Part shown: positions 39,683-58,140 of the stretch, in pieces | Layout of the letters: each line of letters opens with the position of its first letter | How positions within the stretch are numbered: the first letter of the stretch is position 1 | From: Halorubrum sp. BOL3-1 | Lineage (GTDB): Archaea > Halobacteriota > Halobacteria > Halobacteriales > Haloferacaceae | Reading direction: 5' to 3' | NCBI RefSeq assembly: GCF_004114375.1 | Contig: NZ_CP034692.1 | Location: forward strand, 2,852,001-2,916,000 | Length of the DNA: 64,000 nt | Notes under the pieces: generated by a model | The model's database searches: none | Seen by the model: only the letters and a program-made list of their open reading frames with translations | What the model was told of the DNA's origin: nothing | Program-made: the position numbers and the translations under genes

Positions 39683-39689
39683 CTTATAA
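39683..39689 (+). promoter_or_regulatory. TATA box CTTATAA of the binding-protein gene
   Basis: CTTATAA ends 26 bp before the ATG at 39716, the position expected for an archaeal TATA box serving a leaderless mRNA. The gene is therefore probably transcribed from its own promoter and is not an assembly chimera at its 5' end. Confidence 0.6.
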
Positions 39690-39715: not shown

Positions 39716-41113
39716 ATGACGCGAAGAATCCAGCGACGCGACGTACTCAGGGGCGCCGGAGCTGTCGGGATCGCGGCCGTCGCCGGCTGCTCGACCGAGA
39801 GCGGCGACGGTGGCGACGGCAGTGACGGCGGAGACGGTTCCGACGGCGGGGACGGTTCCGACGGCAGTGACGGCGAGGACGGGGACGGTTCCGACGGCAG
39901 CGACGGGGGATCGGTCCCGGACGCCGTGATGGTCGTCGGGTTCCCGCAGTCCGGTATCCAGCTGTTCCGCGACTTCTACTCGGAGTTCGCAGACAGCGCG
40001 CCGGACCTCGACATCATCGTTCCCGACGGGCTGATCGACGGCGACCTCCCGGGTGAGGTCGACAACGACATGAACAACGTCATCGGCACGGCGCCGTCGG
40101 CCGGCGGTCCGGGTGCCGACTTCTTCGCCGAGTCGTACCAGGAAGAGTACGACGAAGAGCCGGGCGTGTTCACCTCGCAGGCGTACGACTCCATGGCGGT
40201 CGAGATCCTCGCGGCCACGGCGGCGGGGGAGAACAATGGGGAAGCGATCCGCGACCGCGTCCGAACGGTCGCCAACCCCGGGGGTGAGGAGTTCGGTCCC
40301 ACGGACCTCACGGAAGCGGTCGAGACGGTCGCCGCCGGTGACCCCGTCCACTACGTGGGCGCGTCCTCCAGTGTCAACTTCGACGTCAACGGCGACATGG
40401 CCACCGCCGCGTACGACATCGTCGACTTCCAAGACGGCGAACTCGTCACCCTCGACACCGTCGAGTTCGGGAACGAGCTCTCCGACGAGGACCTGAACGC
40501 GACGGCCGAAGACCCCGTCGGCGTCGACTCGTTCACCGCTCGTGTCGGCGTACTGATGCCCGAGACGGGCGACCTCGGTCCGCTGGGCGGACCGATCCGC
40601 GACGGCGCGCTGCTGGCCGCCACGCAGGTCAACGACGCCGGCATCAACGTCGAGGTCGACACCCGCGTCGAGGACACCCAGACCGACCCGCAGGCCGGTA
40701 TCTCCGGCGCGAACGCCCTCGTCAACGCCGGCTACGGTGCCGTCGTCGGCCCGGCATCGTCGAACGTCAACCTCCAGGTCTCGGACCAGGTGTTCATCCC
40801 GAACGGCGTCGTGGGCATCTCGCCGTCGTCGACGGACCCGAACGTGACGGACTTGGACGACAACGGCTACATCTTCCGCACGGCTCCGTCCGACCTGCTT
40901 CAGGGACCGGCAATGGCCGACCTCGCGGTCAGCGACACGGTGGGCGCGGAGACGTCCGGCACGCTGTACCTCAACGACGCGTACGGGCAGTCGCTCGAAG
41001 GGTCGTACGTCAACGCCTTTGAGAAGCGCGACGGCACTATCGACCAGCGCGCCTCCTTCGAGCCGAACCAGGCGACGTACACCAGCCAGTGGTCGAGCGT
41101 GCTGAACCAGTAG
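39716..41113 (+). CDS. LivK-type substrate-binding lipoprotein, circularly permuted
   Basis: 465 residues. MTRRIQRRDVLRGAGAVGIA and AVAGC give a Tat lipoprotein signal; a Gly/Asp/Ser linker runs to about residue 66. Then comes the C-terminal half of a type I binding protein (PDAVMVVGFPQSGIQLFRDF at 68, PGVFTSQAYDSMAVEILA, ending TLDTVEFG near 258). After a new linker (NELSDEDLNATAEDP) the N-terminal half follows (FTARVGVLMPETGDLGPLGG at about 273, VGPASSNVNLQVSDQVFIP) and the protein stops at SQWSSVLNQ. In ordinary homologues that last segment leads straight into DPDAVMVVG. All expected parts are present once. It should bind branched-chain amino acids or similar; the livH-livM permeases begin at 62655. 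Confidence 0.88.
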   Translation: MTRRIQRRDVLRGAGAVGIAAVAGCSTESGDGGDGSDGGDGSDGGDGSDGSDGEDGDGSDGSDGGSVPDAVMVVGFPQSGIQLFRDFYSEFADSAPDLDIIVPDGLIDGDLPGEVDNDMNNVIGTAPSAGGPGADFFAESYQEEYDEEPGVFTSQAYDSMAVEILAATAAGENNGEAIRDRVRTVANPGGEEFGPTDLTEAVETVAAGDPVHYVGASSSVNFDVNGDMATAAYDIVDFQDGELVTLDTVEFGNELSDEDLNATAEDPVGVDSFTARVGVLMPETGDLGPLGGPIRDGALLAATQVNDAGINVEVDTRVEDTQTDPQAGISGANALVNAGYGAVVGPASSNVNLQVSDQVFIPNGVVGISPSSTDPNVTDLDDNGYIFRTAPSDLLQGPAMADLAVSDTVGAETSGTLYLNDAYGQSLEGSYVNAFEKRDGTIDQRASFEPNQATYTSQWSSVLNQ

Positions 41114-41185
41114 GCGCCCGTTAGCGTCCGATCCTTCCTCCAATTTTTCGCCTGCCCGCGTACCGGAACGGTCGCGCTTAGTGCG

Positions 41186-41333
41186 GTGGCGCGCGCCTCC
41201 GAGGCCGCACCGCGGCCGAGGAGCACGTACGAGGGAGTCAGTCGCCGGAGCGAAGCGGAGGCGACTGACGAGGCTGGGGAGGTACGAGGTGTGGGGCCGC
41301 GCGGGGCGGGACTCGCGGCTGGGGCTTCGGCGG
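41186..41333 (-). repeat. dispersed intergenic repeat, copy B
   Basis: About 148 bp related, in inverted orientation, to 7187-7433. Read on the minus strand it starts CCGAAGCCCCAGCCGCGAG, passes through CCTCCCCAGCCTCGTCAG and CGACTGACTCCCTCG and ends GGCGCGCGCCAC. It fills most of the 318-bp gap between the permuted binding-protein gene and tfs; the remainder has a T-run (AATTTTTC near 41143) that could terminate transcription of the former. Confidence 0.75.
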
Positions 41334-41431
41334 TCTCGATCGGAGAGTCGGTCGCGACGCGGTCGCGCCACAGATCGTAGCGATCGCGGAACACGGAACC
41401 TAAACCGCTCGCTCCCGTATCAAAAACATAT

Positions 41432-41761
41432 ATGCAGTTCTGTGACGACTGCGGCTCGATGATGGTCTCTCGCGACGGGGAGATGGTGTGTCAGAACGAC
41501 GACTGCGGCGCCACGACCGAGCGCGACGAGGCGCTCGCCGCCGAGTTCGAGTCGACGACCGAACAGACCGGCGAGGAGGTGATCGAGACTGAAGAGGGCG
41601 CGAACTTCGAGGGGAAGCCCACCGCGGACGACATCGTCTGCGACGAGTGCGGCCACGGCGAAGCGTGGTACACGATCAAACAGACCGGCGCCGCCGACGA
41701 GCCGCCGACGCGATTCTTCAAGTGTAAAGAGTGCGGCCACCGGTGGCGCGGGTACAACTGA
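41432..41761 (+). CDS. tfs: transcription factor S (TFIIS-like)
   Basis: A 109-residue archaeal transcript-cleavage factor. The N-terminal zinc ribbon (MQFCDDCGSMMVS ... CQNDDCGA) resembles RpoM/Rpb9; the C-terminal ribbon (VCDECGHGEAWYTIKQTG ... FFKCKECGHRWRGYN) has the acidic hairpin AADEPPTRFF whose Asp-Glu pair reaches into the RNA polymerase active site. The start is preceded by AAAAACATAT, an AT-rich promoter segment directly upstream. Confidence 0.95.
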   Translation: MQFCDDCGSMMVSRDGEMVCQNDDCGATTERDEALAAEFESTTEQTGEEVIETEEGANFEGKPTADDIVCDECGHGEAWYTIKQTGAADEPPTRFFKCKECGHRWRGYN

Positions 41762-41766
41762 CCGCG

Positions 41767-42306
41767 ATGGTCGAGACCGAGCGACCTGCTCGCCGGTGGC
41801 CGCGCGCGCTCTACGCCCTCGCCGCGGTCGCGGTGACGGTGTCAGTCGCTCTCCTCTTCGGTCGTGCGCTCGGCTTCTGGCGCGTCAGACTCGCGGTCGG
41901 CAAACTGCTCGCGCTGCTGCCGGACGACGGCGTTCCGGACCACGTCCGAGTGCTCCCGCCGCCGGACGACGAGTACGCCGGGACGCTGCCGACGACGCCC
42001 GCGGAGACCCGCGAGCGACTCCCCCAGCGAGGCTTTTCTGAACTCGTCCGGGCGTACTTCCACGCCTACGAGCGAGACGGCGAGACGGTCCACGAAGTCG
42101 GGAGCTTCGTCCACCGCCCCGAGGGGCTCACCGGGGACTGGCAGGTCCATGTGCGACTGTTCCGCGCGCCTGACGGCTCGACCGAGGTCTGGGCTCACTG
42201 GGAGCGAAACCCGTACGTGGCGCCGCTGGCGCACCTGCGGATGGAGGGGTACGACCCCGCCCGCGGCGAGCGGATGGCGGCGGAGTTGATCGACAACCTA
42301 CGGTAG
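41767..42306 (+). CDS. membrane-anchored haloarchaeal protein, unknown function
   Basis: 179 residues with one N-terminal TM helix (ALYALAAVAVTVSVALLFG) and a soluble domain (RVLPPPDDEYAGTLP, GDWQVHVRLFRAPDGSTEVWAHWERNPYV, MEGYDPARGERMAAELI). No catalytic motif recognised. It begins 5 bp after tfs and is probably cotranscribed. Start at the ATG at 41767; the upstream in-frame extension lies within tfs. Confidence 0.75.
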   Translation: MVETERPARRWPRALYALAAVAVTVSVALLFGRALGFWRVRLAVGKLLALLPDDGVPDHVRVLPPPDDEYAGTLPTTPAETRERLPQRGFSELVRAYFHAYERDGETVHEVGSFVHRPEGLTGDWQVHVRLFRAPDGSTEVWAHWERNPYVAPLAHLRMEGYDPARGERMAAELIDNLR

Positions 42307-42312
42307 GCGCTC

Positions 42313-42951
42313 TCAGGCGTCCCGCAGCCGCGGCACGAGGAACGCTGCGACCGCCTCCCCCACGTCACCGGCCCGCCCGACGAAGAAGTGGTCCGATTCG
42401 AACGCGACCGTCTCGACTCCCAGTTCTCCCGCCCGCTCGACGACTGGCTCCCAGTCGGCGGTCGAGTCGCGCGTCGCGTACAACACGCGGACCGGTACGC
42501 CGCGCTCGACGACCTCGCTGAGCGCCTCGGCCGCGTCGGCGTCGGGATTCAGACGCCCGGTCGGCGCGAGCGCGCAGACCCCCGCGAGGTCGGGGCGCGA
42601 CGCGGCCGCGACGAGCGCGACCGTGCCGCCGAACGAGAAGCCGAACAGCCCGACGCGGTCGTAGCGCTCGGCCGCCCACCCGACCGCCTCGTTCGTGTCG
42701 GTACTCTCACCGTATCCCTCGTCCCAGTCGCCGTAGTCGAAGCGGAGGCAGTCGATCCCCCGCTCGGTCAGGGCGCCGCTGGCGGCCACCAGTCGGTCGT
42801 CGCCGCGGTGGCCGCGCCGCTGCGGGTGGGGAGGACACGCGACGGCGACGGCGTCGGCACGCTCGCCGGCGCTATCGACGTCGGTCGCCGAGGCGAGGTC
42901 GAGGCTGGCGCGCACGTCGCGGCCGCCGGGGATCAGGATGGTGTCGGACAC
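42313..42951 (-). CDS. alpha/beta hydrolase (dienelactone hydrolase-like)
   Basis: 212 residues. AVACPPHPQRRGHRGD is the oxyanion region, RFDYGDWDEGYGES follows, the nucleophile elbow is GLFGFSFGGTVAL (Ser about 107), and the Asp/His partners lie in LYATRDSTADWEP and FESDHFFVGRAGD. The HPQ.GG-like pattern places it with the short alpha/beta hydrolases often called hydrolase of the alpha/beta superfamily (YpfH or KANL3-like). The substrate is unknown. Confidence 0.85.
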   Translation of the reverse strand: MSDTILIPGGRDVRASLDLASATDVDSAGERADAVAVACPPHPQRRGHRGDDRLVAASGALTERGIDCLRFDYGDWDEGYGESTDTNEAVGWAAERYDRVGLFGFSFGGTVALVAAASRPDLAGVCALAPTGRLNPDADAAEALSEVVERGVPVRVLYATRDSTADWEPVVERAGELGVETVAFESDHFFVGRAGDVGEAVAAFLVPRLRDA

Positions 42952-42981
42952 GGTGTCGGAGACCGTCGCGACGCTCGACGA

Positions 42982-43380
42982 TCAGGGCACCCGCGTCACG
43001 CGGTCGACGCCGTCGAGGTCCACCAGGTCCGCCGCGAGCGCCTCTTGATCGACGTTGGCCTCGTAGTAGAACACGAGGTCGAAGGCGCCGTCGCGGAGCA
43101 GCTGCTGGCACTCCCAGACGAACGCCTCGTCGTCGAGCGTCAGCCCCTGGAACTGGTTCGACGAGAAGCCCGTGTCGTCGTTGCCGGCCTCGATGTACGT
43201 CTCGCTTTTCCCCGCGTGGTCGGCGATGACGTCGTTGGCGGCGACCGTCAGTTCGTGCATCTCCAAGTCCTGCTGGCCGTCGAGATTCGTGTGGACGATG
43301 CAGCCCACCAGCTCGATGTCGCCCGGCTCTAACAGGGCCTTCGTGCGGGTGTACAGGTCTGAATCGACGGTCTCACTCAT
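42982..43380 (-). CDS. DUF5778 family protein
   Basis: 132 residues, haloarchaea-specific. DLYTRTKALLEPGDIELVGC, QQDLEMHELTVAANDVIADH and FDLVFYYEANVDQEALAADL fit DUF5778 as remembered. A compact alpha/beta cytoplasmic protein of unknown function. It lies 30 bp upstream of the hydrolase gene on the same strand. Confidence 0.82.
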   Translation of the reverse strand: MSETVDSDLYTRTKALLEPGDIELVGCIVHTNLDGQQDLEMHELTVAANDVIADHAGKSETYIEAGNDDTGFSSNQFQGLTLDDEAFVWECQQLLRDGAFDLVFYYEANVDQEALAADLVDLDGVDRVTRVP

Positions 43381-43455
43381 GACCTGTCCTTCCGGCTCCC
43401 GTAATAAACGGGTGACGGTTCTCGCGCCGGATCGGACGCCCGCGGAACCCGCGTC

Positions 43456-44418
43456 TCAGCGCCGGAGCGACACGACAACGTCGTCGCCGACCGTGTCCGT
43501 CTCGACCAGTCCGTCGTCCCCGAGATCGCTGACGAGTCCGCGAAGCCACTCCCGGCCGTGTTCGCCGTCCGGCGCGTAGTCTACTCGGATCCGATGGCCG
43601 AGCGCGTCCAGGCCCATCTCGTCGTGCTCGCCGAGCAGTCGGACGATCCGCCCGCGGAACTGCCGCCGGCTCCCCTCGAAGCTCGGCTGTTCGGGCACGT
43701 CGGGCGCGGTGAAATCCCCCGTCTGGTACGCGTGACACCACTCGCGCCACGGGCAGCCGGCCTCGTCGCATCGAGGCTTCTTCCCGCAGGCGACGCCGCC
43801 GAGTTCCATGACCGCGTTGTTCCACACTCGCGACTCGCCCGCCGGCATGATCCGAGACGCGACCCGCTCGAACGCGTCGTCGTCGTCCGGCACGTCGAAC
43901 GCGCGGTACAGCACTCGCTTCACGTTGGTGTCGACGACGGCGTCGCCGTCGTTGAACGCGAACGACGCCACCGCGTTGGCGGTGTAGGGGCCGACGCCCA
44001 TCAGCTCCCGCAGCTCGTCGGGCGTCTCCGGAAACGTCCCGCCGTACTCGGTCTCGACCTGCCCGGCCGCCTCGTGGAGGTACTTCGCGCGGTTGTTGTA
44101 CCCCAGCGAGTGGTCCGACCAGAAGGCGACCACGTCGGCGCGGTCGGCCGCCGCGAGCGGCGCAGTCGTCGGCCACTCGTCGAGGAAGTCCTCCCACGCC
44201 GGCACGACCCGGTCGAGCTGCGTCTGCTGGCTCATCACCTCGCTGACGAGGACCTCGTAGGGGTCCTCGGTCCGGCGCCACGGGAAATCCCGATGGTCCG
44301 TCTCGTACCAGTCGACGAGCGCGTCGCGGACCGCGCCGAGGTCGGCCGGGAGATCCGACATCTCCCCACCGTCGGTCTCGGCGACGTCGTCCGCGGCCGC
44401 ACCGTCCGAATCGGTCAT
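43456..44418 (-). CDS. mutY: A/G-specific adenine DNA glycosylase
   Basis: 320 residues removing A opposite 8-oxoguanine. It shows VSEVMSQQTQLDRVVPAWED (catalytic Glu), LMGVGPYTANAVASFAF (HhH), AVVDTNVKRVL (catalytic Asp) and the iron-sulfur loop with four Cys (CGKKPRCDEAGCPWREWC). The bacterial C-terminal NUDIX-like domain is replaced by about 80 residues ending in a winged-helix-like part (LDALGHRIRVDYAPDG, GLVSDLGDDGLVETD). The four Cys spacings (5-4-5) differ from the usual 6-2-5. Confidence 0.92.
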   Translation of the reverse strand: MTDSDGAAADDVAETDGGEMSDLPADLGAVRDALVDWYETDHRDFPWRRTEDPYEVLVSEVMSQQTQLDRVVPAWEDFLDEWPTTAPLAAADRADVVAFWSDHSLGYNNRAKYLHEAAGQVETEYGGTFPETPDELRELMGVGPYTANAVASFAFNDGDAVVDTNVKRVLYRAFDVPDDDDAFERVASRIMPAGESRVWNNAVMELGGVACGKKPRCDEAGCPWREWCHAYQTGDFTAPDVPEQPSFEGSRRQFRGRIVRLLGEHDEMGLDALGHRIRVDYAPDGEHGREWLRGLVSDLGDDGLVETDTVGDDVVVSLRR

Positions 44419-44442
44419 ACCTCCGGTCCGGCCGGCGGCGGT

Positions 44443-45087
44443 TTATCGGTGCTGGTCCCCATCGGTGCGGGCCGCCGTCATCGTCCGCGGGTCGCGGTCG
44501 GGACCGGGGTACTCCCCGCCGACCGCCTCCGGGTAGAGCTTCGCCGGGTCGAACACCGTCGCGAACGCGCGCGGCTCTCGGACGCTCACGGGCAGGCGGT
44601 CGCGCAGCCCGGCGGCGGCCCCCGGTCCGGTCAGCGAGGGATCGAGGCTCACGACCTGCATCGCGCCGCCCCGGTACGCGGACGCCAGCGCGGGGTGGTC
44701 GCCCGGCGGCTGGGCGACCGGCTCGCGCCACGCCGCGACCGCGGTACGCCACTCCGCCGCCACGTCCGGGTCCGAAATCGACGCGATCACCGCCTCGGCG
44801 TCGTCGAGCAGTCGGTCGCTGGCGACGAGCGTCGTCCACGCGTGCGACCGGAGGGAGTCGAGGGCGCCACGGGTAGCCCCCCCGACGAGGAGGTCCGCGG
44901 CGAGCGCGTCCGCGTCGACGACGACGCGGGCCGGACTCGGCTCTGACGGCTCGGAGACGGCGGCGTCCGCGGGCCCGTCGTCCGCGGTCGGTGCCGACCG
45001 CACGTCGTCGAGCGCGCGGCGCACGTCCGCCTCGTCGAGGCCGCCGGCGACCGCGTCTGTGCGCTCGAACAGGTCGACAAAGGTCAT
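44443..45087 (-). CDS. haloarchaeal PIN-like protein (possibly DUF7384)
   Basis: 214 residues. The central ARVVVDADALAADLLVGG and LVASDRLLDDAEAVIASI resemble the first strand and helix of a PIN domain with its acidic residue, and HPALASAYRGGAMQVVSLDP resembles the later DxxLxxAA-like segment. It could be a nuclease or a degenerate relative. It lies directly upstream of mutY (24 bp) on the same strand and may be cotranscribed, suggesting a nucleic-acid role. Confidence 0.68.
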   Translation of the reverse strand: MTFVDLFERTDAVAGGLDEADVRRALDDVRSAPTADDGPADAAVSEPSEPSPARVVVDADALAADLLVGGATRGALDSLRSHAWTTLVASDRLLDDAEAVIASISDPDVAAEWRTAVAAWREPVAQPPGDHPALASAYRGGAMQVVSLDPSLTGPGAAAGLRDRLPVSVREPRAFATVFDPAKLYPEAVGGEYPGPDRDPRTMTAARTDGDQHR

Positions 45088-45220
45088 GCCCTCGGGTCGG
45101 TGCCCCGTCCGTATCGCCCTTGCGGCCGCGACGCGGTAGGCGCCGGCCTCGCGGTAGCCCCGCCTCCAGAGTCGGTCTCCGGGCCCGGACGTTATCGGTC
45201 ACCGTGCCGAAGACGGCGAC

Positions 45221-45965
45221 GTGAGCGATCGACCTACCGACGAGCCGATCACCGACGATCCGACCGTCGCCGTTCCACAGCTCCCGCTTGCCGACCTCGA
45301 CGTCGAAGCGAACGTCGACCGGATCCGGGACCGAGCCGCCGACGCGGGTCCCGCGGTCGACCTCGTCGTCTTCCCCGAGTACGCGCTCACGGGGTTCGCG
45401 GCCGACGACCGGCTCCGGGAGGCGGCGCTCTCGCGGAACGAGGCGCGCGCACGGCTCGAAACCGTCGCGGAGGCGGCCGGCGCGGCGGTCGTCGCCGGCT
45501 ACGCGGAACGGGACGGCGACTCGGTGTACAACGCGAGCGCGTACGTCCCGGTCCCGGACCGAGCCGCGAGCGGCGGCCGCGGAGCGTTCTCCGTCTACCG
45601 CAAGCGACACCTGTGGGACGAGGAGGGCGAGTGGGTCGAGCCGGGGGGCGACCGCGTGGTCGTCGAGACGCCCGCCGGCCCGACCGGCTCGTTGACCTGT
45701 TACGACCTCGATTTCGTCGGGAGAGCGCGTGTTTCACCGAACGCGCGGTCGACGCGCTGATCGTCGTCGGTGCCGGTCGGACCGGGACCGCGGGCGGCGA
45801 ACGGCCGACCGCGGAGTCGACGTACGCCGGGAACTCCCTCGTCGCGCGCCCAGACGGGGCGGTCACGCCCGACTGGGGCGGGAGTCGACGACGCTGACCG
45901 CGACGCTCGACCGCGACACGCCGTCCGCACAGCGGGACCTCGTCGACGCGGTGGACGATACTTAG
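45221..45965 (+). pseudogene. nitrilase/carbon-nitrogen hydrolase gene, broken
   Basis: The N-terminal part is intact: LVVFPEYALTGFAADD (catalytic Glu), SVYRKRHLWDEEGEWVEPGG (catalytic Lys) and GSLTCYDLDFV (Cys). Just after the Cys the frame changes; the next frame reads SACFTERAVDALIVVGAG, skips the usual WP..R..HW region, continues STYAGNSLVARPDGAVTPDWGG, and a third frame ends STTLTATLDRDTPSAQRDL to the stop near 45965. So there is at least one internal deletion of about 25-30 residues plus two frame changes: a true pseudogene. The intact enzyme would hydrolyse an amide or nitrile. Confidence 0.8.
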
Positions 45966-46022
45966 AAAATAATTTTGTTAATATTGAAAAAGTAGTTTTC
46001 ATAATAGGAATAATTAAGTAGG
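45961..46022 (+). promoter_or_regulatory. AT-rich promoter region of dpsA
   Basis: About 60 bp of strikingly AT-rich sequence in GC-rich surroundings, containing the palindrome AAAATAATTTT (45966-45976) and further TTAATATTGAAAA and AATAATTAAGTA boxes. The latter lies 30-35 bp upstream of the dpsA ATG and may serve as TATA element. The density of AT-rich symmetrical sequence suggests binding by a regulator such as an iron-dependent DtxR-type protein. Confidence 0.5.
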
Positions 46023-46045
46023 TCCCGCACGTATGTATAGTTGAG

Positions 46046-46594
46046 ATGAGTACCCAGAAGCAGGCCCGTCAACAGTACGGCGACGTTCACGAAAGCGAAG
46101 CGCTCGGCGTCCCCGAGGAGAAGGCCGAACAGCTCGTCGACGCGCTCAACACCGACTTGGCGGCGACGTACGTCCTCTATCACCAGGTCAAAAAGCACCA
46201 CTGGCTCGTCGAGGGCGCCGAGTTCCTCGGCATCCACGAGTACCTCGGCGAGGTCGCGGCCGATCTTGAAGAGGGCGCGGACGTGCTCGCGGAGCGCGCG
46301 CAGGCGCTCGGCGGCGTGCCGCTCTCCGGCGGCGCGAACTACGAGGAGCACGCGCCGGTGACCCCCGAGGACGCCGACGCCTACGACATCCGCACCTCGC
46401 TGGAACACGACCTCGAGATCTTCGGCGACATCACCGAGCAGCTCCGCGAGCACATCCAGCTCGCCAACAATCTCGGTGACTACAACACCGAGGAACAGCT
46501 CCGCGGGACCCTCGAAACCGTCGAGGAACACGGTCACCACATCGAGCACTACCTCGAAGACGACACGCTCGTCACGAGTAAGACGCTCGAATAG
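46046..46594 (+). CDS. dpsA: DNA-protecting ferritin-like protein DpsA
   Basis: 182 residues of a Dps-type dodecameric ferritin that oxidises and stores iron and protects DNA. VLYHQVKKHHWLVEGAEFLGIHEYLGE and LEEGADVLAERAQALGGVPL carry the inter-subunit ferroxidase residues (His, Asp, Glu). The C-terminus is a helix with His (EEHGHHIEHYLEDD). Very similar in layout to Halobacterium DpsA. It follows an AT-rich control region. Confidence 0.95.
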   Translation: MSTQKQARQQYGDVHESEALGVPEEKAEQLVDALNTDLAATYVLYHQVKKHHWLVEGAEFLGIHEYLGEVAADLEEGADVLAERAQALGGVPLSGGANYEEHAPVTPEDADAYDIRTSLEHDLEIFGDITEQLREHIQLANNLGDYNTEEQLRGTLETVEEHGHHIEHYLEDDTLVTSKTLE

Positions 46595-46686
46595 ACCGAC
46601 TGCGGCGGGCCGCCGGCGAGCCGATCCGGACGTCGATTCCGACTTTTCGACCGACCTTCCCGCTCAAAGAGAGACAGCCGTGCCGA

Positions 46687-47232
46687 TCAGTCGAGATTCG
46701 GCGTCCGCTCGCCGGCCGGGATCACGATCTCCAGCCAGTTCTCTTCCGGCGGGAGCGGACAGGAAAACGTCTCGTTGTAGGCACAGAACGGGTTGTACGC
46801 GAGGTTGAAGTCGACGGTGACGCTGTCGCCGTCGGTGAGGTCCCGCTCGGGTGCCAGTTCCATGTACCGGCCCTGGCGGTACGTCTGCTGTCCCGTCGTC
46901 TTGTCGCGGAACGGGACAAAGATGGCGCCGTCGTCGCCCTCCTGTCGGTACCCGGCGAGCGTGTGTTCCTCGCCGTCGACCTCGAGCGCGAAGGCGACGA
47001 CCCGGAGGTACCGGACCGGGTTGCTCGCGGTCGTCTCCATCTCGACCGGCTCCGGTTCGTCGCGGACGGTGACGGTCGCCTCGACGCGGTAGATGGGGTC
47101 CGGCTCGAAGTAGTCGAGCCCGTCGAACTCGTCGCGCTGTGCCGGCGGAATCGGTGACTGTTGGTGTTCGGCGAAGAACTCGTCTTTCTCCCGGCGGTTC
47201 GCGCGGAGCCGCTCGGCGTAGTCGTCGTTCAT
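46687..47232 (-). CDS. DUF1684 family protein
   Basis: 181 residues. AERLRANRREKDEFFAEHQQ followed by SPIPPAQRDEFDGLDYFEPD is the DUF1684 opening, and DFNLAYNPFCAYNETFSCPL with PPEENWLEIVIPAGER is its conserved end, containing two Cys. The family is found in bacteria and haloarchaea with unknown function. Start at ATG 47232; a longer frame upstream is not supported by the family. It lies 106 bp downstream of the HTH regulator gene on the same strand. Confidence 0.88.
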   Translation of the reverse strand: MNDDYAERLRANRREKDEFFAEHQQSPIPPAQRDEFDGLDYFEPDPIYRVEATVTVRDEPEPVEMETTASNPVRYLRVVAFALEVDGEEHTLAGYRQEGDDGAIFVPFRDKTTGQQTYRQGRYMELAPERDLTDGDSVTVDFNLAYNPFCAYNETFSCPLPPEENWLEIVIPAGERTPNLD

Positions 47233-47338
47233 AGGCGGTTTGACGGGCGCCCGCGGTTTCAGGGCCGCGGTTCCGTCGCCGACGGGGGCAGCGCAGACGG
47301 TGCGGTCGGTGGGGTTAGCAGTGTCGAAATCACCGGGA

Positions 47339-48040
47339 TCAGAGCGTCTGGAGGTCTGCGAGGCAGTCGTCGAGGTCGCGGTTCGACGTCGCCAGCGAAA
47401 ACCCGTCGGCACGGGCGAGGTCGCCGGCATGGTCCCACAGGTCGCCGTCCTCGATCCCGTGGAGGACGACCGCGTTCGGCGTCGGACTCACGACACGCAG
47501 CGCCACGAGCGGAGACTCGCCGCGGGTCACCCGCGTGAACACGAGCGCGCGGTTCGTCGACTGGCCGTACAGCCGGTAGAACTCCTCGCTCGACAGCCGG
47601 GTGATCGCCTGGATCGAGTCGATGACGGTGTGGCCGTTCACATGGTCGTGGTCGCCGCGGACGACCTCCGTCGCGCCCATCACCTCGTGGAACTCTTCGA
47701 GGGGGACCGCAGTCGAGTACTCCCGGAGGTCGTGAACGATGTCGCTCTCGAAGCCCGCAGAGAGGACCCGGGCGTGCTGGCGGAGGCGGCCGCCGCCGCG
47801 GCGCTCGTCGATGTCGAGAAGCCCCTCGACGGTTCGGCGGACGACCCCGATCCCCGGGCTCTCGCGGCGACCGCTCTCGTAGTCGGAGACGACCGACGAG
47901 GAGACGTCGAGATGGTCGGCTAACTCGGTCTGCGAGACGTCGAAGTCGGTCCGCCACTTCCGGAGGGTCGCCCCCGGATCGTCGCTCAGCGTTATCTCGC
48001 CGGCGATCCGCCGGGAGAGCTCCTCGCGTGCGTCGCTCAT
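47339..48040 (-). CDS. archaeal XRE-type transcriptional regulator
   Basis: 233 residues. An HTH_XRE domain at about 22-72 (LRKWRTDFDVSQTELADHLDVSS and SVVSDYESGRRESPGIGVV) is followed by a conserved archaeal C-terminal domain (VPLEEFHEVMGATEVV, DHDHVNGHTVIDSIQAITRL, VVLHGIEDGDLWDHA). The same architecture is found in archaeal regulators of unknown ligand. It probably acts as a repressor; its target may be itself or the divergent DNA downstream. Confidence 0.82.
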   Translation of the reverse strand: MSDAREELSRRIAGEITLSDDPGATLRKWRTDFDVSQTELADHLDVSSSVVSDYESGRRESPGIGVVRRTVEGLLDIDERRGGGRLRQHARVLSAGFESDIVHDLREYSTAVPLEEFHEVMGATEVVRGDHDHVNGHTVIDSIQAITRLSSEEFYRLYGQSTNRALVFTRVTRGESPLVALRVVSPTPNAVVLHGIEDGDLWDHAGDLARADGFSLATSNRDLDDCLADLQTL

Positions 48041-48103
48041 ACCGCGAATCGACGACCGAGCGCCGCAAAAGGCTACCGTTCGTCGCGCGCGGCGTCGGGG
48101 ACC

Positions 48104-48382
48104 CTACTCCAGGTACAGCGAGTAGACGATGACGGCGAACCCGACCGCCGTGAGGAGACCGTCGATCGCGATGCCGACCGCGAGGTCGGCGCCGATGATC
48201 TGGTGGGAGACGCCGCCCAGCAGCGCGCCGACGGTGACGACGCCGAAGCCGACGCCGAGCTCCCGGAGCGACCGGTCTCCGGTCCGGTCGTACGCGCGGA
48301 GCGCGTAGTAGGTGATGCTGCCACCGAGCACCAGGATGGCGGTCTTTGCGGCGATGATCGTTAGGTCGATATACGGGTTCAT
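48104..48382 (-). CDS. three-helix membrane protein (DUF7521-like)
   Basis: 92 residues with three TM helices (IAAKTAILVLGGSITYYALR, VGFGVVTVGALLGGVSHQII, AVGIAIDGLLTAVGFAVIVYSL). The ATG at 48382 overlaps the stop of the wHTH gene by 4 bp (ATGA). Haloarchaea often pair an ArsR-like wHTH gene with such a small membrane protein; the pairing suggests a one-component membrane-linked sensor, but this is unproven. Confidence 0.72.
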   Translation of the reverse strand: MNPYIDLTIIAAKTAILVLGGSITYYALRAYDRTGDRSLRELGVGFGVVTVGALLGGVSHQIIGADLAVGIAIDGLLTAVGFAVIVYSLYLE

Positions 48383-48777
48383 GTTTCCTCTCGTAGCTCC
48401 GACCACAGGTCTGCGAGCCGCTCGTCTCGGGTCCGTTCCGGCCGGGAGAACGCTACGTCGAACTCGCGGCGGTCCTCGTCGTTCTCGGCGCCGTCGTCGA
48501 CGGAGACGGTGACGGCGTCGAACGACACCGAATACCGCGCCGTGTGCTGTCCGTCCCGCCGGATGTCGGTCGATTCCGACAGCAGGGCGGCGTCGGTGAG
48601 CTTCTCCAGTTTCCGGTAGGTCGTCGACAGGGGGATGTCACACTCCTCGGAGAGTTCGCTCGCGGTCTTCGGCTCGGTGAGCGCCGCGACGATCCGACGG
48701 GCCGCGTCGTCGGCCAGCGCGTCAAGTACCTCTTCGACCGGCGGTGGCTCCGGCTCTCGCGACGGGTCCCGCACCAT
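48379..48777 (-). CDS. ArsR-like winged-helix transcriptional regulator
   Basis: 132 residues. The wHTH domain occupies about 15-85: EVLDALADDAARRIVAALTE, KTASELSEECDIPLSTTYRK (recognition helix) and a wing with DGQHTARYSVSFD. The C-terminal 40 residues are acidic and probably disordered. It is the first gene of a two-gene operon with the membrane protein. No metal-binding Cys cluster is visible. Confidence 0.85.
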   Translation of the reverse strand: MVRDPSREPEPPPVEEVLDALADDAARRIVAALTEPKTASELSEECDIPLSTTYRKLEKLTDAALLSESTDIRRDGQHTARYSVSFDAVTVSVDDGAENDEDRREFDVAFSRPERTRDERLADLWSELREET

Positions 48778-49081
48778 GCGTGACGGTTCGGCCCCCGAAA
48801 CTTAAACCATCGAAGTTCCGTTCGACGCGGCGGCGGTTCGATCGCCGGACCGCAGGACCCGTGCCCCCTAGCGACGCCAGTCTCCCGGTTTCGCGTCGCG
48901 CCGTCGTACGGTGACCCGGTGGACACATTGAAGCGCTGGGTTATCAGATCCGCCGGGTCGGTCGTCGCCGGCACCGACGAGGGGGTCCGCGCGTTCGAGC
49001 GCGCGTTCGAGCGGGACCGCTCCTCCGGCGCAGCCGGGACGAGTCGAACGCTTCAAGTATTCGCTGGCTGTTCATATCCGT
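48778..49081. other. 304-bp intergenic region before rps8e
   Basis: No convincing gene. A GTG at 48919 opens a frame (MDTLKRWVIRSAGS...) that runs into rps8e in another frame and turns Arg/Pro-rich, so I reject it. The rps8e promoter probably lies near CTTCAAGTATTCG (49050-49062), about 25 bp upstream of its ATG. Confidence 0.45.
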
Positions 49082-49453
49082 ATGAAAGACCAGGGACGCT
49101 CCACGCGCAAGCGGACCGGCGGCCGACTCAAACACGCCTCGAACAAGAAGCTGCACCAGCTCGGCCGCGAGCCCGCCGAGACGACGGTCGATGAGACGCG
49201 CCTCCAGTACATCGACTCCCGCGGTACCGGAAAGAAGGTCCGCGCGCTCTCGACGAACGTCGCGCAGGTCGCGGACGGCGGCGATGTCAGCGAGGCCGAC
49301 ATCGAAAACGTCGTCGACAACCCGGCGAACGTCAACTACGTCCGCCGGAACATCGTCACCAAGGGCGCGGTCATCGAGACGTCCGCCGGCCGCGCGCGCG
49401 TCACCTCGCGCCCCGGCCAGACCGGCCAAGTCAACGCGGTCCTGATCGACTGA
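49082..49453 (+). CDS. rps8e: 30S ribosomal protein S8e
   Basis: The 123-residue archaeal/eukaryal-type small-subunit protein. Sequence start KDQGRSTRKRTGGRLKHASN, a basic N-terminus binding rRNA, then KKVRALSTNVAQVADGG and NVNYVRRNIVTKGAVIETS, ending in TGQVNAVLID. Length and all segments match family members. It is followed 82 bp later by rnhB. Confidence 0.97.
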   Translation: MKDQGRSTRKRTGGRLKHASNKKLHQLGREPAETTVDETRLQYIDSRGTGKKVRALSTNVAQVADGGDVSEADIENVVDNPANVNYVRRNIVTKGAVIETSAGRARVTSRPGQTGQVNAVLID

Positions 49454-49535
49454 CGGCAGCGCGCTCCTAGTCGGCCGACGGTCTCGGCCGACGCCTTCCT
49501 GAAAGTATTTCCTCTCGCCTACCCGCTACCCACGC

Positions 49536-50267
49536 GTGTACCTCGGCGTCGACGAAGCCGGAAAGGGACCCGCGCTCGGACCGATGGTCGCGGCGGCGGC
49601 GGTCGCTGACCCGGCGAGCCTGCCGGCCGACGTGGACGACTCGAAGCGGATAGCGCCGACCGAGCGCGAGGCGATGGCCGCGACCCTCAGGGAGGACCCG
49701 GACGTCGCCGTCGGCGTGGCCCGCGTTGAACCGACCGAGATCGACCGACCGGACACCGACATGAACACGCTCACCGTCCGCGGACAGGCGCGGGCGGTCC
49801 GGGCCGCGCTCACCGACCTCCCCCCTGGAACCGCCGAACCGGTCCGCGTCGTCGCGGACGCGGGCGACACCAGCGAGGAGCGGTTCGCGCGGCGCCTCCG
49901 CGAGTCCGTCGCGGCGGGCGGCGAAGACGGACCGCCGGACGACCGGGACGAATCTTCGGACGACGACGAACGCCTCCCCTCGGTCGACGTGACGGCCGCG
50001 CACGGTGCCGACGCGGACGATCCCGTCGTCGGCGCCGCGAGCGTCGTCGCCAAGGTGGTTCGCGACGCCGCCATGGTCGATGTCGACGCCGCGTACCACG
50101 AGTACGACGACCTCGGCAGCGGATACCCGAGCGACCCGAGTACCCGGGAATTCCTCGCCGCGTACGTGGGCGATCACGGATCGCTTCCCGACTGCGCGCG
50201 CGAGTCGTGGGCCACCTGCGAGGACGCGCTCGCGGCCGCCGAGCAGTCGGCGCTAGACGAGTTCTAA
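49536..50267 (+). CDS. rnhB: ribonuclease HII
   Basis: 243 residues removing RNA from RNA-DNA hybrids and single ribonucleotides. GVDEAGKGPALGPMV holds the first Asp-Glu pair (with Lys in place of the usual Arg), VADAGD the third acidic residue, and GAASVVAKVVRDAAM the last Asp. An Asp/Ser-rich insertion (GPPDDRDESSDDDE) at about 131-145 is a haloarchaeal addition. It starts with GTG at 49536, about 30 bp from AAGTATTTCC. Confidence 0.93.
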   Translation: MYLGVDEAGKGPALGPMVAAAAVADPASLPADVDDSKRIAPTEREAMAATLREDPDVAVGVARVEPTEIDRPDTDMNTLTVRGQARAVRAALTDLPPGTAEPVRVVADAGDTSEERFARRLRESVAAGGEDGPPDDRDESSDDDERLPSVDVTAAHGADADDPVVGAASVVAKVVRDAAMVDVDAAYHEYDDLGSGYPSDPSTREFLAAYVGDHGSLPDCARESWATCEDALAAAEQSALDEF

Positions 50268-50290
50268 CGACCGAGAGGGTGTCCCACCGC

Positions 50291-51004
50291 TCAGAACAGC
50301 CCGGCGACGAGACCGCCGACCGCGCCGACGAACGTCTCCCAGACGGAGAACCCGGTCGCGATCGACAACACCGTGTCCGCGCCGAAGAAGGCGAATAGCA
50401 GCGCGGACGCGAAGTGCGCCAGCCGCATGTCGACGCTGCCGGCGAACCGGTGGAAGAAGTACGCGTTCGCGAGGCTGACCGGGATGATGGCGAGCATCTC
50501 CCCGGCCCAGATCGCGGAGGTCGCGCCGTACTGGACCGCTAAGCCGATGGTGACCAGCTGCGTCTTGTCGCCGAACTCCCCGGTCGCGGTCAGCGCGAAG
50601 ATGGGAAGGAAGCCGCCGAGCGACCCGGAGTACCGGTCGAGCCGACCGGGTAACGAGAGGTCGTCGAACGCCGCCAGCCCGCCGTCGGTGCGCTCTCCGC
50701 CGGCCGCCTCGGGCGACGCCGACCCGGGCGACGGCGCGGAGCGGTACAGTAGGACCGCGAAAATGAAGAACAGTACCGCGGTCACCGCGTCCAACACGAC
50801 CGGCGGAAACGCCGACTGGAGGGCCTGCCCGAACGCGATCTCGACCGCGGTCCAGCCGGCGAACGCGGACCCGGCGGCGGCGACGACGACCTTGGGGTCG
50901 TACTTCGTCGAGAGCCCGGCGATCATCAGCTGGACCTTCTCGCCCGGTAACACCGCGAGCTGGGTGGTGAACGCGATGACGACGATCTCGGCGTAGCCGG
51001 TCAT
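50291..51004 (-). CDS. GDT1/TMEM165-family transporter (UPF0016)
   Basis: 237 residues, six or seven TM helices in two repeats. The second repeat has the signature ALTATGEFGDKTQLVTIGL (ExGDKT). The first repeat has only a diverged form (AVLPGEKVQLMIAGLS, without the Glu-x-Gly-Asp). Family members move Mn2+ or Ca2+ out of the cytoplasm. Its ATG overlaps the end of the DtxR-family gene by 4 bp, so manganese-responsive control is likely. Confidence 0.87.
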   Translation of the reverse strand: MTGYAEIVVIAFTTQLAVLPGEKVQLMIAGLSTKYDPKVVVAAAGSAFAGWTAVEIAFGQALQSAFPPVVLDAVTAVLFFIFAVLLYRSAPSPGSASPEAAGGERTDGGLAAFDDLSLPGRLDRYSGSLGGFLPIFALTATGEFGDKTQLVTIGLAVQYGATSAIWAGEMLAIIPVSLANAYFFHRFAGSVDMRLAHFASALLFAFFGADTVLSIATGFSVWETFVGAVGGLVAGLF

Positions 51005-51705
51005 ACGTCGCTCGCCTCTTGACCGTCGGTCGCGGCCGTCGAGTCCGCCGCGTAACGGACGTACACGCGGTTCGCCACCGCTTTCGGGAGGTCGTGTGTA
51101 TCCCCGCCGCCCGTCCGAACGGTGACTAAGCCGAAGGAGGTGACATCGACGACCTCGACGGTCGTTTCGGGCGTGATATCCGCGTCAACGAGGAACTCCA
51201 GCACGTCGGAGTCGCGGTCGCTCACCCGGACGACCGTCCCCCGCTCGCCGGGTTCTAACGCCGCGACGAGCGTCGTTCCGGCGTCTTCCGGCGTCGACAG
51301 GTCCGCCGGCGGGATCGGGTCGCCGTGCGGGTCGGCGGTGGGGTAATCGAGGAGCCGTTCGACCCGCCGCGTGAACTCCTCGCTGACGTGGTGTTCGAGC
51401 GCGTCGGCCTCGTCGTGGACCTCGGTCGGCTCGTAGTCCAACTGCTCGGCGAGGAACGCCTCGATCAGCCGGTGTCGGCGCACGACCTCTAACGCGGCGA
51501 CCTCGCCGGCGGGCGTGAGTTCGACGCCCGTGTACTTCTCTCTGGAGAGGAGTCCCCGGTCGGAGAGCGTCTCTACCATGCTCGTCACGGTCGCCGGCGT
51601 CTTGTCGAGCGCCTCCGCGATCTGCGAGGTCGAGACGGGTGGTCCCGCCCGCGACTCGATCCGATGGATCGCCTTGAGGTAGTCTTCGACTGCGTCGGTC
51701 GGCAT
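51001..51705 (-). CDS. DtxR-family metal-dependent regulator
   Basis: 234 residues. N-terminal wHTH (DAVEDYLKAIHRIESRAGPP, TSQIAEALDKTPATVTSMVE), dimerisation domain with metal ligands (ALEVVRRHRLIEAFLAEQLD, EVHDEADALEHHVSEEF) and a C-terminal SH3-like/FeoA domain (GTVVRVSDRDSDVLEFL). This is the MntR/SirR layout. It overlaps the downstream GDT1-type gene (ATGA), pointing to Mn or Fe sensing. Start ATG at 51705. Confidence 0.92.
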   Translation of the reverse strand: MPTDAVEDYLKAIHRIESRAGPPVSTSQIAEALDKTPATVTSMVETLSDRGLLSREKYTGVELTPAGEVAALEVVRRHRLIEAFLAEQLDYEPTEVHDEADALEHHVSEEFTRRVERLLDYPTADPHGDPIPPADLSTPEDAGTTLVAALEPGERGTVVRVSDRDSDVLEFLVDADITPETTVEVVDVTSFGLVTVRTGGGDTHDLPKAVANRVYVRYAADSTAATDGQEASDV

Positions 51706-51901
51706 AGACGTTTTTGATTGGTCTAAACTAATAGTTTGTCGGATCGATCCACCGATCGCGACGGACTCTGCTCATCGACCCGTCTCGGTTGACAAATGCG
51801 GTGTTTCTCTCCGCAACAGCTCGATAATTCGATCGCGCGTAACCCGAGTGTTCCCAAGACGGCTCGAAAATAGCGGCGGGACGAGGGCGGTCGGCCGCCG
51901 T

Positions 51902-53491
51902 TCAGCGGACCGTCAGCAGGCGGCGCAGGATGTCTCCGTAGGCGGGTCGGGTGATCAACACGCCGATCAGCACGCCGAGGATGGTGAAAATGGCGAACCC
52001 GGAGAGGTCCCCGAGCGAGAGCACCATCAGCGGCGACATCGCGATGATGGTCGTGGCCGCGGCCGCGCCGATGACCCAGAAGGCCTGACGGAACCGCGAG
52101 TCGAACACCTTCCGAGAGTTCACGTCGCCCTCGCTCATCACCTGGTCCGCGATGATGACGAGGTCGTCGACGCCGGTCCCGACGACCGCGATGAAGCCGG
52201 CGATCACCGCGAGTTCGAGCGGGTACCCTAACAGCGCGGCGAACCCGAGCAGGGCGTACACCTCCGTCAGCGCCGTGACGATCATCGGCAGCGCGACGCG
52301 GGGCTCGCGGTAGCGGAGGAACACCATTCCCGCGACGGCGAGTACCGAGAGGATCCCGATAACGAGCGAGTACGTCCGGAAGTTCTCCCCCTGCGAGGCC
52401 GAGATGGACGAGGAGGTCCCCTCGCCGCTGACGTCGAGTTCCGCCGGGAGCGCGCCGGCGCGGAGGTTCAGCGAGATTGTCTGGGCCTCGCTGAACTCGC
52501 CGGTCGTGAGCCGGAACTGACCGGTCTCCGCCCACGAGCCGGCGGCCATGCCGTCCGCGAGCCCCGAGTCCATCCCGAAGGAGTTGACGACCTCGTCGTT
52601 GACGACGAGCAACAGGCAGGGGTTCCGCTCACCGGTGAGCGATCCGTTGACGTACTCGCACCGGTCGGTCCGAGTCTCGTACGCGCCGGGGAAACCCCGC
52701 TCGACCACGGCGTCTTGGAAGGCGGTGGCCGGTGACTGGCCGCTCTCGCCGGTGTTACGGACCGTGACGGGTACGTACGCCCCCGTGCCCTGGTCGCTCT
52801 GTGACGCGGTCCCGATCTCGTCGAAGTTCTCCTGGACCAACACGCCCTCGTCGACGCCGGTCTCGTTGCCGTCGGCGTACGCGATGTCGATCCGGACGGT
52901 TCCACGCTCTTCGAGGAGGTCGACCACGTCCTGCCGTCCCTCGCCCGGGACTTCGACGAGGATGAAGTACTCGCCGGTGATCGACTGGACCTGTTGGACG
53001 CTGCCGCCGGAGAGTCCGGCCTCGTTGATCTTCCCTTCGATGACGTTCATCGTCTCGTCGCGCGTCTCCTGTGTGACGCCCGAGCGAACGTTGCCGTACT
53101 CGTAGCCGCTGGCGTCCATCGCGGCGCGGAACTCCGCTTCGGTCACCGCCGGGTCCGTGACCTCAACCGCGCGCTCGTCGGCGACCGCGCCGACGTTCCG
53201 GGCGGAGGTGTTAGGTAACTCGTCGGCCACCGCCCGCGCGACCGTCGCCGGATTGTCACCCCCGAACGCGACATCGGTCGCGGTGTGTCCCGACAGCGGC
53301 GCGCGTATCCGCGTCCCGCCCGCCAGGTCCAGCCCGTACTGGAGGTTCGTGATCCCCGATCGGGCCTCGTTCGCGGTCTCGCCGGGCGCCGGCTCCGGTC
53401 CGAACCCGGGCGCGAACAGCGCCACCGACGCCCCGATCACGACGGCGACGATCAACAGGATCCGCCAGTTGTCCTTGATCGGTTCGAGCAT
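51902..53491 (-). CDS. secD: preprotein translocase subunit SecD
   Basis: 529 residues. First TM (WRILLIVAVVIGASVALF), then LQYGLDLAGGTRIRAP (the D1 signature), a large extracytoplasmic domain, and five C-terminal TM helices with LAVIAGFIAVVGTGVDDLVI and the RND-type core. Uses the ion gradient to pull exported proteins; haloarchaea lack SecA. Start ATG at 53491 overlaps the secF stop by one base (TAATG). Cotranscribed with secF, which comes first. Confidence 0.95.
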   Translation of the reverse strand: MLEPIKDNWRILLIVAVVIGASVALFAPGFGPEPAPGETANEARSGITNLQYGLDLAGGTRIRAPLSGHTATDVAFGGDNPATVARAVADELPNTSARNVGAVADERAVEVTDPAVTEAEFRAAMDASGYEYGNVRSGVTQETRDETMNVIEGKINEAGLSGGSVQQVQSITGEYFILVEVPGEGRQDVVDLLEERGTVRIDIAYADGNETGVDEGVLVQENFDEIGTASQSDQGTGAYVPVTVRNTGESGQSPATAFQDAVVERGFPGAYETRTDRCEYVNGSLTGERNPCLLLVVNDEVVNSFGMDSGLADGMAAGSWAETGQFRLTTGEFSEAQTISLNLRAGALPAELDVSGEGTSSSISASQGENFRTYSLVIGILSVLAVAGMVFLRYREPRVALPMIVTALTEVYALLGFAALLGYPLELAVIAGFIAVVGTGVDDLVIIADQVMSEGDVNSRKVFDSRFRQAFWVIGAAAATTIIAMSPLMVLSLGDLSGFAIFTILGVLIGVLITRPAYGDILRRLLTVR

Positions 53492-54372
53492 TAGCGTTTT
53501 ACCCCCTCGAACTTGTACCAGCGAAGCAGCGAGACGTTCATCAGATACGTGTTCATCAGGTCGGCGCACAGCCCGACCGCGAGGATGATCCCGATGTCGC
53601 GGAGGAGTCCGATACCGAACAGCGCGGCGACGACCGCCATCACGACCATCGCCGCGATGGAGGTCAGCGTCATCGTCACCCCGGTCCGCATCGCGCGGCT
53701 GACCGACTCGTAGAACTCACCGGTCCGGCGCAGCACCGAGTCGTTCAGCAGGATGTCCGAGTCGACGCTGTACCCGATGATCATCAGAAGCGCCGCGATC
53801 GTTCCGAGCGTCATCTGGATGCCGAGCAGGTTCATCGCCGCGATCGGGATGACCAGATCGGAGAACGCGGACGCGACGACCGCCAGCGAGGGGACGAACG
53901 TCCGGAACAGCGCGAACACGAGGACGCTCATCCCGAGGAAGGCGAGGGCCACGCCAAAGAGGGCAGTCCGCGCGGTGTCGCTCGCGAAGCTCGGCGACAC
54001 CTGGTCGACCGCGGTCGTCGTCAACCCGGCCGCGCTCGCCTGATCCTCCAAGTCGTTCGCGAGCCCGTCGGGGTCGTCCTCGGCCGCTTGGAACGTTGCG
54101 ACGACGACGTCGTCGCCGGGGATCGTGCGGACCGAGTCCGGCTCCCGCTCGAAGGCCGTCTGAATCTGTTCTTCGACGTCTCCCCCGTCGTCCGCGATTC
54201 GCAGCTCGACGCCGCCGGTGAACTCTAACCCGAGATTCGCCGGCGCGCCGGTGGCGACGACCCACCCGCCGATTATCGCCAGCGCGAGGACCAGAAACGC
54301 GAGCGGCACCGCCGCAAGCTGCCGGTTCGAGTAGTCGGTGTAGTCGACCGCCGGCACCTCGATCGCTACCAT
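53491..54372 (-). CDS. secF: preprotein translocase subunit SecF
   Basis: 293 residues, six TM helices. ATGAPANLGLEFTGGVELRI is the D1-type signature and LLMIIGYSVDSDILLNDSVL the conserved TM4 motif. Partners SecD in one membrane complex. The order secF-secD is the haloarchaeal arrangement and the two genes overlap by one base. ATG at 54372 lies about 30 bp from a TTCTTATACGCC segment in the upstream region. Confidence 0.95.
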   Translation of the reverse strand: MVAIEVPAVDYTDYSNRQLAAVPLAFLVLALAIIGGWVVATGAPANLGLEFTGGVELRIADDGGDVEEQIQTAFEREPDSVRTIPGDDVVVATFQAAEDDPDGLANDLEDQASAAGLTTTAVDQVSPSFASDTARTALFGVALAFLGMSVLVFALFRTFVPSLAVVASAFSDLVIPIAAMNLLGIQMTLGTIAALLMIIGYSVDSDILLNDSVLRRTGEFYESVSRAMRTGVTMTLTSIAAMVVMAVVAALFGIGLLRDIGIILAVGLCADLMNTYLMNVSLLRWYKFEGVKR

Positions 54373-54440
54373 AAATACCGCTTCCTCCGCGGGCGCGAAT
54401 AAGCCTTCTTATACGCCCAGCGGACGACGCTCTCACGCGC

Positions 54441-54623
54441 TCAGAGAACGATGCTCTTGATCCGGAGGTACGCCTCGATGCTCGTGTCGATCCCCTCCCG
54501 ACCGATGCCGGAGTCGCCGTTCCCGCCGAAGGGGATGTCACCGAGTCCGTGGCTCGGCGCGCCGTTGATCCGGACGGCACCAGCGTCGATCCGTTCCGTG
54601 ACGCCGAGCGCGCGGTCGTAGTC
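54441..54623 (-). pseudogene. C-terminal fragment of an aldehyde dehydrogenase gene
   Basis: 61 codons ending at the stop at 54441-54443: DYDRALGVTERIDAGAVRIN, GLGDIPFGGNGDSGIGREG and YLRIKSIVL. These are the last strands of an NAD(P)-dependent aldehyde dehydrogenase, including the PFGGNGDSGIGREG motif. The catalytic Cys and all upstream parts are absent; sequence before 54623 no longer resembles the family. A relic of a deletion. Confidence 0.8.
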
Positions 54624-54684
54624 CGCGTGAGGTGGGTCGCGCTCGACAACAGCCGACGAAGAGAACAGGAGCGACAGCGTCGCT

Positions 54685-55155
54685 TCAGGGGAGGTAGCGA
54701 ACGGCGACGACCCCCGGCTCGGACCGGATCTCGACGCGGTTCACGCCCAGACGTGCCGCCCGCGAGAGCGTCCCCTCGCGGTCGTCGATCACGTCGGCGA
54801 CCGCCTCGTCCGTCTCCGGCTCCGGCGGCGTCAACACGTGGACCTCACCGACGCCGGCCCGCGGCTCTTGGGCGAGTTCGCCGGTCGGGGTCTCGGCGGC
54901 GAGTTCCCGCTCGTGGACCGTCGGTGGCTCCGGGCTCTCCTCGATCGACACCGAGCGACGCTCCGCGACCTCGATCACCTGATAGGTGACCTCCATCGGC
55001 GGGTCGGGGGCGACCGTCGCCTCGACGGCGTCGTCGACGTCGAGCCCGGGGTTCGAGCCGAGCGTGTGAACCTGTCCGTCGTGGACGTCTTTCAGCACGG
55101 CCGAGTCGCCCTCGGCGTGTGTGACGAGGAACGTGCTCTCCTTCTCGTCGGTCAT
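54685..55155 (-). CDS. DUF5812 family protein
   Basis: 156 residues, haloarchaea-specific. The N-terminus (KESTFLVTHAEGDSAVLKDV, HTLGSNPGLDVDDAVEAT) forms a small beta domain; the C-terminus (LSRAARLGVNRVEIRSEPG) ends the protein. An acidic linker lies in between. Function unknown. ATG at 55155. Confidence 0.8.
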   Translation of the reverse strand: MTDEKESTFLVTHAEGDSAVLKDVHDGQVHTLGSNPGLDVDDAVEATVAPDPPMEVTYQVIEVAERRSVSIEESPEPPTVHERELAAETPTGELAQEPRAGVGEVHVLTPPEPETDEAVADVIDDREGTLSRAARLGVNRVEIRSEPGVVAVRYLP

Positions 55156-55235
55156 CGGCCGCCGGTAAGCGCTCGCGCGACTTCTGGCTTTCGAGCCGGA
55201 GTCGATGGCCGGTCGGCGGAGACCGCGTCCTTCCG

Positions 55236-55760: not shown

Positions 55761-55839
55761 CGCCTCCGATAGGTGCGTCGACGAATTAAACCCCTCGTCG
55801 GCGGGAAGCCATTTATACGCCCGAGCGGATCCCTCTGAC

Positions 55840-56490: not shown

Positions 56491-56519
56491 TCGCCTCCGG
56501 TGGCTCCCCCGAGATCGGC

Positions 56520-57686: not shown

Positions 57687-57712
57687 ATATGTAAATAGAG
57701 CACGCACGCGCG

Positions 57713-57718
57713 CTTAAA
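57713..57718 (-). promoter_or_regulatory. TATA box (TTTAAG) of the PiT gene
   Basis: On the minus strand GTTTAAGC lies about 27-32 bp upstream of the ATG at 57686, which begins in CATATATG. The spacing fits a leaderless archaeal transcript. Confidence 0.5.
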
Positions 57719-57805
57719 CGGATAGGATTCGCCGTTCTGCTAGCGTTAACCCCGCGGCGTTCTCGGCGGCGATCCCGACGCGGCCGCGACGCGGCCGCTC
57801 CGCTC

Positions 57806-57837
<32 letters not shown>

Positions 57838-57860
57838 CCGGTCTTGTACCGCTGTGATCT

Positions 57861-57953: not shown

Positions 57954-57960
57954 GAAGTGT

Positions 57961-58091: not shown

Positions 58092-58140
58092 CGGGTTGCA
58101 ACCATGGCAAGGTTGCGTGATACCACTACACTACCGGTGC
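58070..58140 (-). tRNA. tRNA-Gly (anticodon GCC)
   Basis: 71 nt. Read on the minus strand, acceptor GCACCGG (58140-58134) pairs with CCGGTGC (58077-58071), A is the discriminator. Anticodon stem CAACC/GGTTG encloses TTGCCAT, giving GCC. T-arm GAGTTCAAATCTC is canonical. No encoded CCA. Confidence 0.97.

Follow-up and report, generated by a model that had tools for sequence, protein, structure and literature searches.

Circularly permuted LivK-type binding lipoproteins in haloarchaea and their probable repeated origin beside one livFGMH operon

The window, i.e. the whole 64,000-nucleotide stretch of the Halorubrum sp. BOL3-1 genome that was analysed, carries a gene for a LivK-type substrate-binding lipoprotein in which the two halves of the family domain stand in swapped order. 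The gene is a single clean frame running from ATG at 39716 to TAG at 41111-41113. Its parts, and the other features of the window that bear on it, are as follows.

39684..39689, + strand: TTATAA, a putative archaeal TATA-box-like element read from the sequence, 27 nt before the ATG
39716..41113, + strand: permuted LivK-type substrate-binding lipoprotein gene, 465 amino acids plus stop (frame, Pfam, PDB, homologues, dN/dS)
39716..39790, + strand: signal peptide with twin arginines and a lipobox ending in Cys25, MTRRIQRRDVLRGAGAVGIAAVAGC (sequence)
39791..39916, + strand: acidic Gly/Asp/Ser tether, residues 26-67 (sequence)
39917..40468, + strand: former C-terminal half, residues 68-251, PDAVMVVGF...DTVEF (Peripla_BP_6 189-312)
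40469..40528, + strand: new linker from the old C-terminus to the old N-terminus, residues 252-271, GNELSDEDLNATAEDPVGVD (absent from canonical relatives)
40529..41110, + strand: former N-terminal half, residues 272-465, SFTARVGVLMPETG...SSVLNQ (Peripla_BP_6 2-192)
41153..64000, no strand: window part of an inversion of ~25.7 kb (blastn against three same-genus genomes)
62655..63776, + strand: livH permease (BPD_transp_2 match), whose operon adjoins the permuted gene in relatives
63773..64000, + strand: start of livM; livM, livG and livF run past the window end (C3 to about 2918773)

The signal peptide is also matched by the Pfam TAT_signal profile, but the match (E-value 0.0055) falls short of the curated cut-off. 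Beyond the tether, the colinear passage from N-half to C-half that is typical of LivK-type proteins is not found. Instead, the Pfam profile Peripla_BP_6 (PF13458) matches in reversed order, with the 5' part of the gene corresponding to profile positions 189-312 (24.7 bits, by itself under the cut-off) and the 3' part to positions 2-192 (81 bits, above it). Similarly, residues 275-460 of the query correspond to residues 17-198 of the LivK-type PDB chain 3td9, and residues 128-191 to its residues 265-328; 4gnr and 4n0q likewise match the protein as two pieces in reversed order. The possibility of two separate repeats was rejected, as the halves match different and complementary parts of one profile. 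The former C-terminal half is 57% identical to the C-half of a canonical orthologue from Halorarius litoreus (locus L048), and the former N-terminal half is 68% identical to the N-half of the same protein. Judged by these alignments, the window protein is a permuted variant of the Peripla_BP_6 family and no ordinary member of it.

The position of the cut can be narrowed down by comparison with relatives. In canonical relatives 16 residues lead from a conserved S-Y to the VxGFP strand (76/76), and in 75 of the approximately 100 permuted loci this stretch is split into 10 residues at the C-terminus and 6 at the start, with the split stretch totalling 15 to 19 residues in the remaining ones. The residue before the 'PD' is linker-like, and hence at most about one residue was lost in the permutation. 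The cut falls at profile position ~189, which, by comparison with LivK and the model of the canonical protein, is the loop leading from a C-lobe helix into the strand that follows; 194 residues have been moved in the window protein. All four permuted clades described below are cut within a residue or so of one bond, and their linkers differ from clade to clade, that of the window protein being unlike those of the other clades.

An earlier note, made from the sequence of this gene, had described a circularly permuted LivK-type protein, encoded in one clean frame behind a TATA box, that had lost nothing, gained a linker and had its lipid anchor shifted. Pfam, PDB and the order in homologues bear out the permutation, the halves, when matched separately, falling on complementary profile parts. 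The frame is as described and the TATA element, while putative, is present; the linker comprises ~20 residues that have no counterpart in canonical relatives, and signal, lipobox and tether now precede the C-terminal half. The 10 + 6 split against the canonical 16 agrees with the claim of nothing lost to within about one residue. The note had also allowed that the junctions might not be real, or that this order might be the ordinary one or reflect two repeats. These doubts are removed by the occurrence of the same, conserved order in many independent related genomes, by the complementarity of the halves, and by the existence of orthologues with canonical order at this locus, next to the same operon.

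In particular, the order is shared by 25 close loci of Halorubrum, Natronomonas and Halohasta (72-93% identity over the best segment), and by two metagenome-derived loci at ~50% identity. Values of dN/dS between the permuted gene and its relatives lie between 0.07 and 0.30, indicative of purifying selection. A chimeric assembly was rejected, and is excluded even without reads because the 25 close loci sharing the order come from independent assemblies. No point was found in support of an assembly or annotation artefact or of two separate repeats; with the same order under purifying selection in dozens of independent assemblies, and with halves that match different parts of one profile, such a reading is almost certainly wrong. 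In another genome of the genus (G163, C2:2081075-2083870; locus L090) the permuted gene is interrupted, with residues 1-362 and 355-465 lying ~1.4 kb apart, which suggests an insertion.

In nearly all fetched loci with enough flank the gene lies tail-to-tail with livF-livG-livM-livH. As this holds for both topologies, the two forms represent a single gene whose locus is the same and whose topology varies. The window gene has no permease next to it, but a liv operon lacking its own binding protein begins at 62655. Comparison by blastn with three same-genus genomes of uninverted order revealed an inversion of ~25.7 kb, from 41153 to ~66810, whose ends fall exactly between the binding-protein gene and livF. 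The orphan look of the window gene is therefore a consequence of the inversion having carried livFGMH away; the LivH of the displaced operon shares 80-94% identity with its counterpart beside the permuted gene in relatives of clade I (see below). Tandem pairs of permuted genes lie beside one livFGMH operon in two loci (L098, 5799-8630; L128, 5980-8792), the only two-gene tandems of the permuted form found in haloarchaea.

The lack of an adjacent permease in the window genome, along with weak NCBIfam and Pfam scores, might be taken to indicate a permuted scaffold that has no part in transport, such as an orphan receptor for taxis or regulation. We consider this improbable, as the inversion accounts for the orphan look, the gene adjoins livFGMH in nearly all relatives, and the pocket residues are kept. 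With respect to the latter, we take the ligand contacts of LivK to be S79, T102, D121, Y150 and E226: residues at the first four positions are retained in almost every row, whichever the topology, and the fifth is replaced by D in every permuted row and in most canonical ones. The named family matches of the window protein are of the Leu/Ile/Val type, with none of the sugar-binding type among them.

Structure prediction gave a good model for the canonical protein L048 (pLDDT 84), with the LivK-type chain 3td9 as best match (TM 0.79/0.86), and a poor one for the permuted protein (mean pLDDT 54, pTM 0.61). In the latter, low-confidence model the stretch 208-400 is aligned with residues 1-192 of the LivK structures 1usg and 1z15, as expected of a permutation. 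Such a model cannot decide between one monomeric bilobed unit and a domain-swapped dimer of the halves. The dimer nevertheless appears very unlikely, in that a linker of ~20 residues would seem sufficient to span the old termini, and binding proteins permuted by engineering commonly fold into monomers. Furthermore, TpMglB-2, a naturally permuted binding protein discussed below, is monomeric (PMC4990184).

The two forms are both widespread. Among 393 sampled genomes of the taxonomic order, 160 carry the permuted form (one match running across the permuted order), 142 the canonical form (full match to L048), 24 both and 115 neither, where the classes were set by gaps in E-values and the chain order was confirmed in all loci then fetched. 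The forms avoid each other (Fisher p 1.5e-13, uncorrected for relatedness between genomes). Canonical order is seen in L048-L061 and in a paralogue within the window genome itself (C3:100908-102239). In a sample of the phylum, relatives from outside the taxonomic order match by halves only, and no permuted form was seen among them. Because of these matches by halves, and the canonical order of the paralogue, the canonical order is taken to be ancestral.

In a protein tree, for which the halves were aligned separately and re-joined in canonical order, the permuted proteins form four clades interspersed with canonical proteins. Clade I, with the window protein and its relatives from Halorubrum, Natronomonas and Halohasta, is sister to the canonical L048; clade II is large; clade III comprises L092, L093, L101 and L134, and clade IV L109 and L135. 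A single permuted clade is rejected on this tree (AU p = 4.5e-4), as is the union of clades I and II (p 1.2e-3), whereas the unions of III and IV (p 0.15) and of II and III (p 0.085) are not rejected; all these p-values are weakened by the clades having been named after the tree was seen. As III is separated from neither IV nor II, only two independent origins are firm. The tree of the transporter, whose proteins have undergone no permutation, also places permuted clade I beside canonical L048, and rejects a single permuted clade with AU p ~1e-103, a value to which the same reservation about the naming of the clades applies. Considered separately, the N-half tree needs four changes of topology; the C-half tree shows three, but is weak, alone forces just one, and places clade I apart from L048. 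In several clade I members, as in L048, the old N-terminus opens with the residues SFEA. A fusion of halves with different ancestry was considered and rejected, since the four permuted clades reappear in both half-trees; the grouping of clade I with L048, however, is confined to the N-half tree. Within Halorubrum, the neighbourhood of a gamma-glutamyltransferase gene holds a binding protein of either clade I or clade II, each accompanied by an operon of its own (L100, L104 vs L021-L044); with a LivH identity of only ~55% between these operons, it looks as though an exchange of the entire locus had taken place.

The common cut position of all permuted clades, and the failure to separate III from IV or II from III, could also be explained by a single ancient permutation from which lineages repeatedly went back to the canonical order. 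However, this would require many exact reversions, as the common ancestor of the permuted rows spans most of the canonical ones; moreover, the linkers are entirely different between clades, the outgroups are canonical, and two independent data sets each reject a single permuted clade. We regard it as unlikely. At least two permutations are thus firm, and three or four are likely. The earlier note had dealt with a single permuted gene and knew of no natural permuted member of the family: the gene stands as described, but the permuted order is common in haloarchaea and the type I protein TpMglB-2 had been published (PMC4990184), and the wide spread, the repeated origin and the livHMGF operon displaced by inversion went beyond what it contained.

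Taken together, it is very probable that the window gene encodes a working, lipid-anchored binding protein of a LivHMGF-type importer for an amino-acid-like ligand, with halves that were circularly permuted at least twice. The chain would start at the loop between the C-lobe helix and the next strand, run to the old C-terminus, pass by way of the new linker to the old N-terminus, and end at the cut helix, with the usual two-lobed type I fold as the predicted outcome. The ligand would be bound in the cleft and then handed to LivHM, and the membrane tether would be joined to the C-lobe and no longer to the old N-terminus. From a canonical order taken as ancestral, the permuted order arose in place beside the same operon and at the same position at least twice, and probably three or four times. 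Tandem duplication followed by trimming, a standard proposal for circular permutation, was probably the route; no fused tandem intermediates were found among the fetched loci, and the linker could be traced neither to read-through nor to what was left of a second gene copy. The moved tether might itself confer some benefit. We lean, with some reserve, towards a convergent circular permutation, in which one orthologous gene was permuted in place and at the same position in several haloarchaeal lineages, with selection favouring tethering through the C-lobe.

As a rule, a natural circular permutation goes back to one ancient event and is observed between distant proteins. In the present case orthologues of either topology occupy one locus next to one transporter, and the closest pair is 57-68% identical by halves. 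Given these common settings, and a change that took place repeatedly at one position, a direct comparison of sister pairs is possible, for instance of the Halorubrum protein with Halorarius L048. Consequently, the effect of chain order and tether point on folding, ligand affinity and transport becomes testable, as does the manner in which a permutation happens in a genome. Annotation by one profile alignment hides such permuted proteins.

Among known systems, the window protein resembles LivK/LivJ (HAAT family, PF13458) in the profile matches of both halves, the ligand-contact residues and the livHMGF partner operon, and other haloarchaeal binding proteins in its lipid anchor; it differs from LivK/LivJ in the halves swapped at profile position ~189, the new linker and the C-lobe tether. 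The canonical orthologues L048 and L152-L221 occupy the same locus beside the same convergent livFGMH operon, but have the canonical order and no internal linker. No published permuted binding protein of the LivK type or from haloarchaea was found in the literature searched. The nearest precedent is TpMglB-2 (Tp0684) of Treponema pallidum, a glucose-binding lipoprotein and naturally permuted type I binding protein, which binds its ligand, changes shape and has been proposed to represent a 'Type Ic / Cluster Bc' (PMC4990184). Like the window protein, it is a naturally permuted, tethered type I ABC binding protein; unlike it, it belongs to the glucose/galactose family, has ~100 residues moved, so that the canonical N-terminus now comes last, and shows reordered strands in the N-lobe with no cut in the C-lobe (PMC4990184), as against the 194 residues moved from a cut at profile ~189. 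Its group is bacterial and separate, without canonical orthologues at the same locus (PMC4990184). A link between its permutation and tethering has been proposed (PMC4990184); for the haloarchaeal case this idea alone is insufficient, because most canonical orthologues also carry a lipobox. Natural permutation in this superfamily is therefore already precedented by TpMglB-2, and it is the recurrence of the permutation that is the surprising part.
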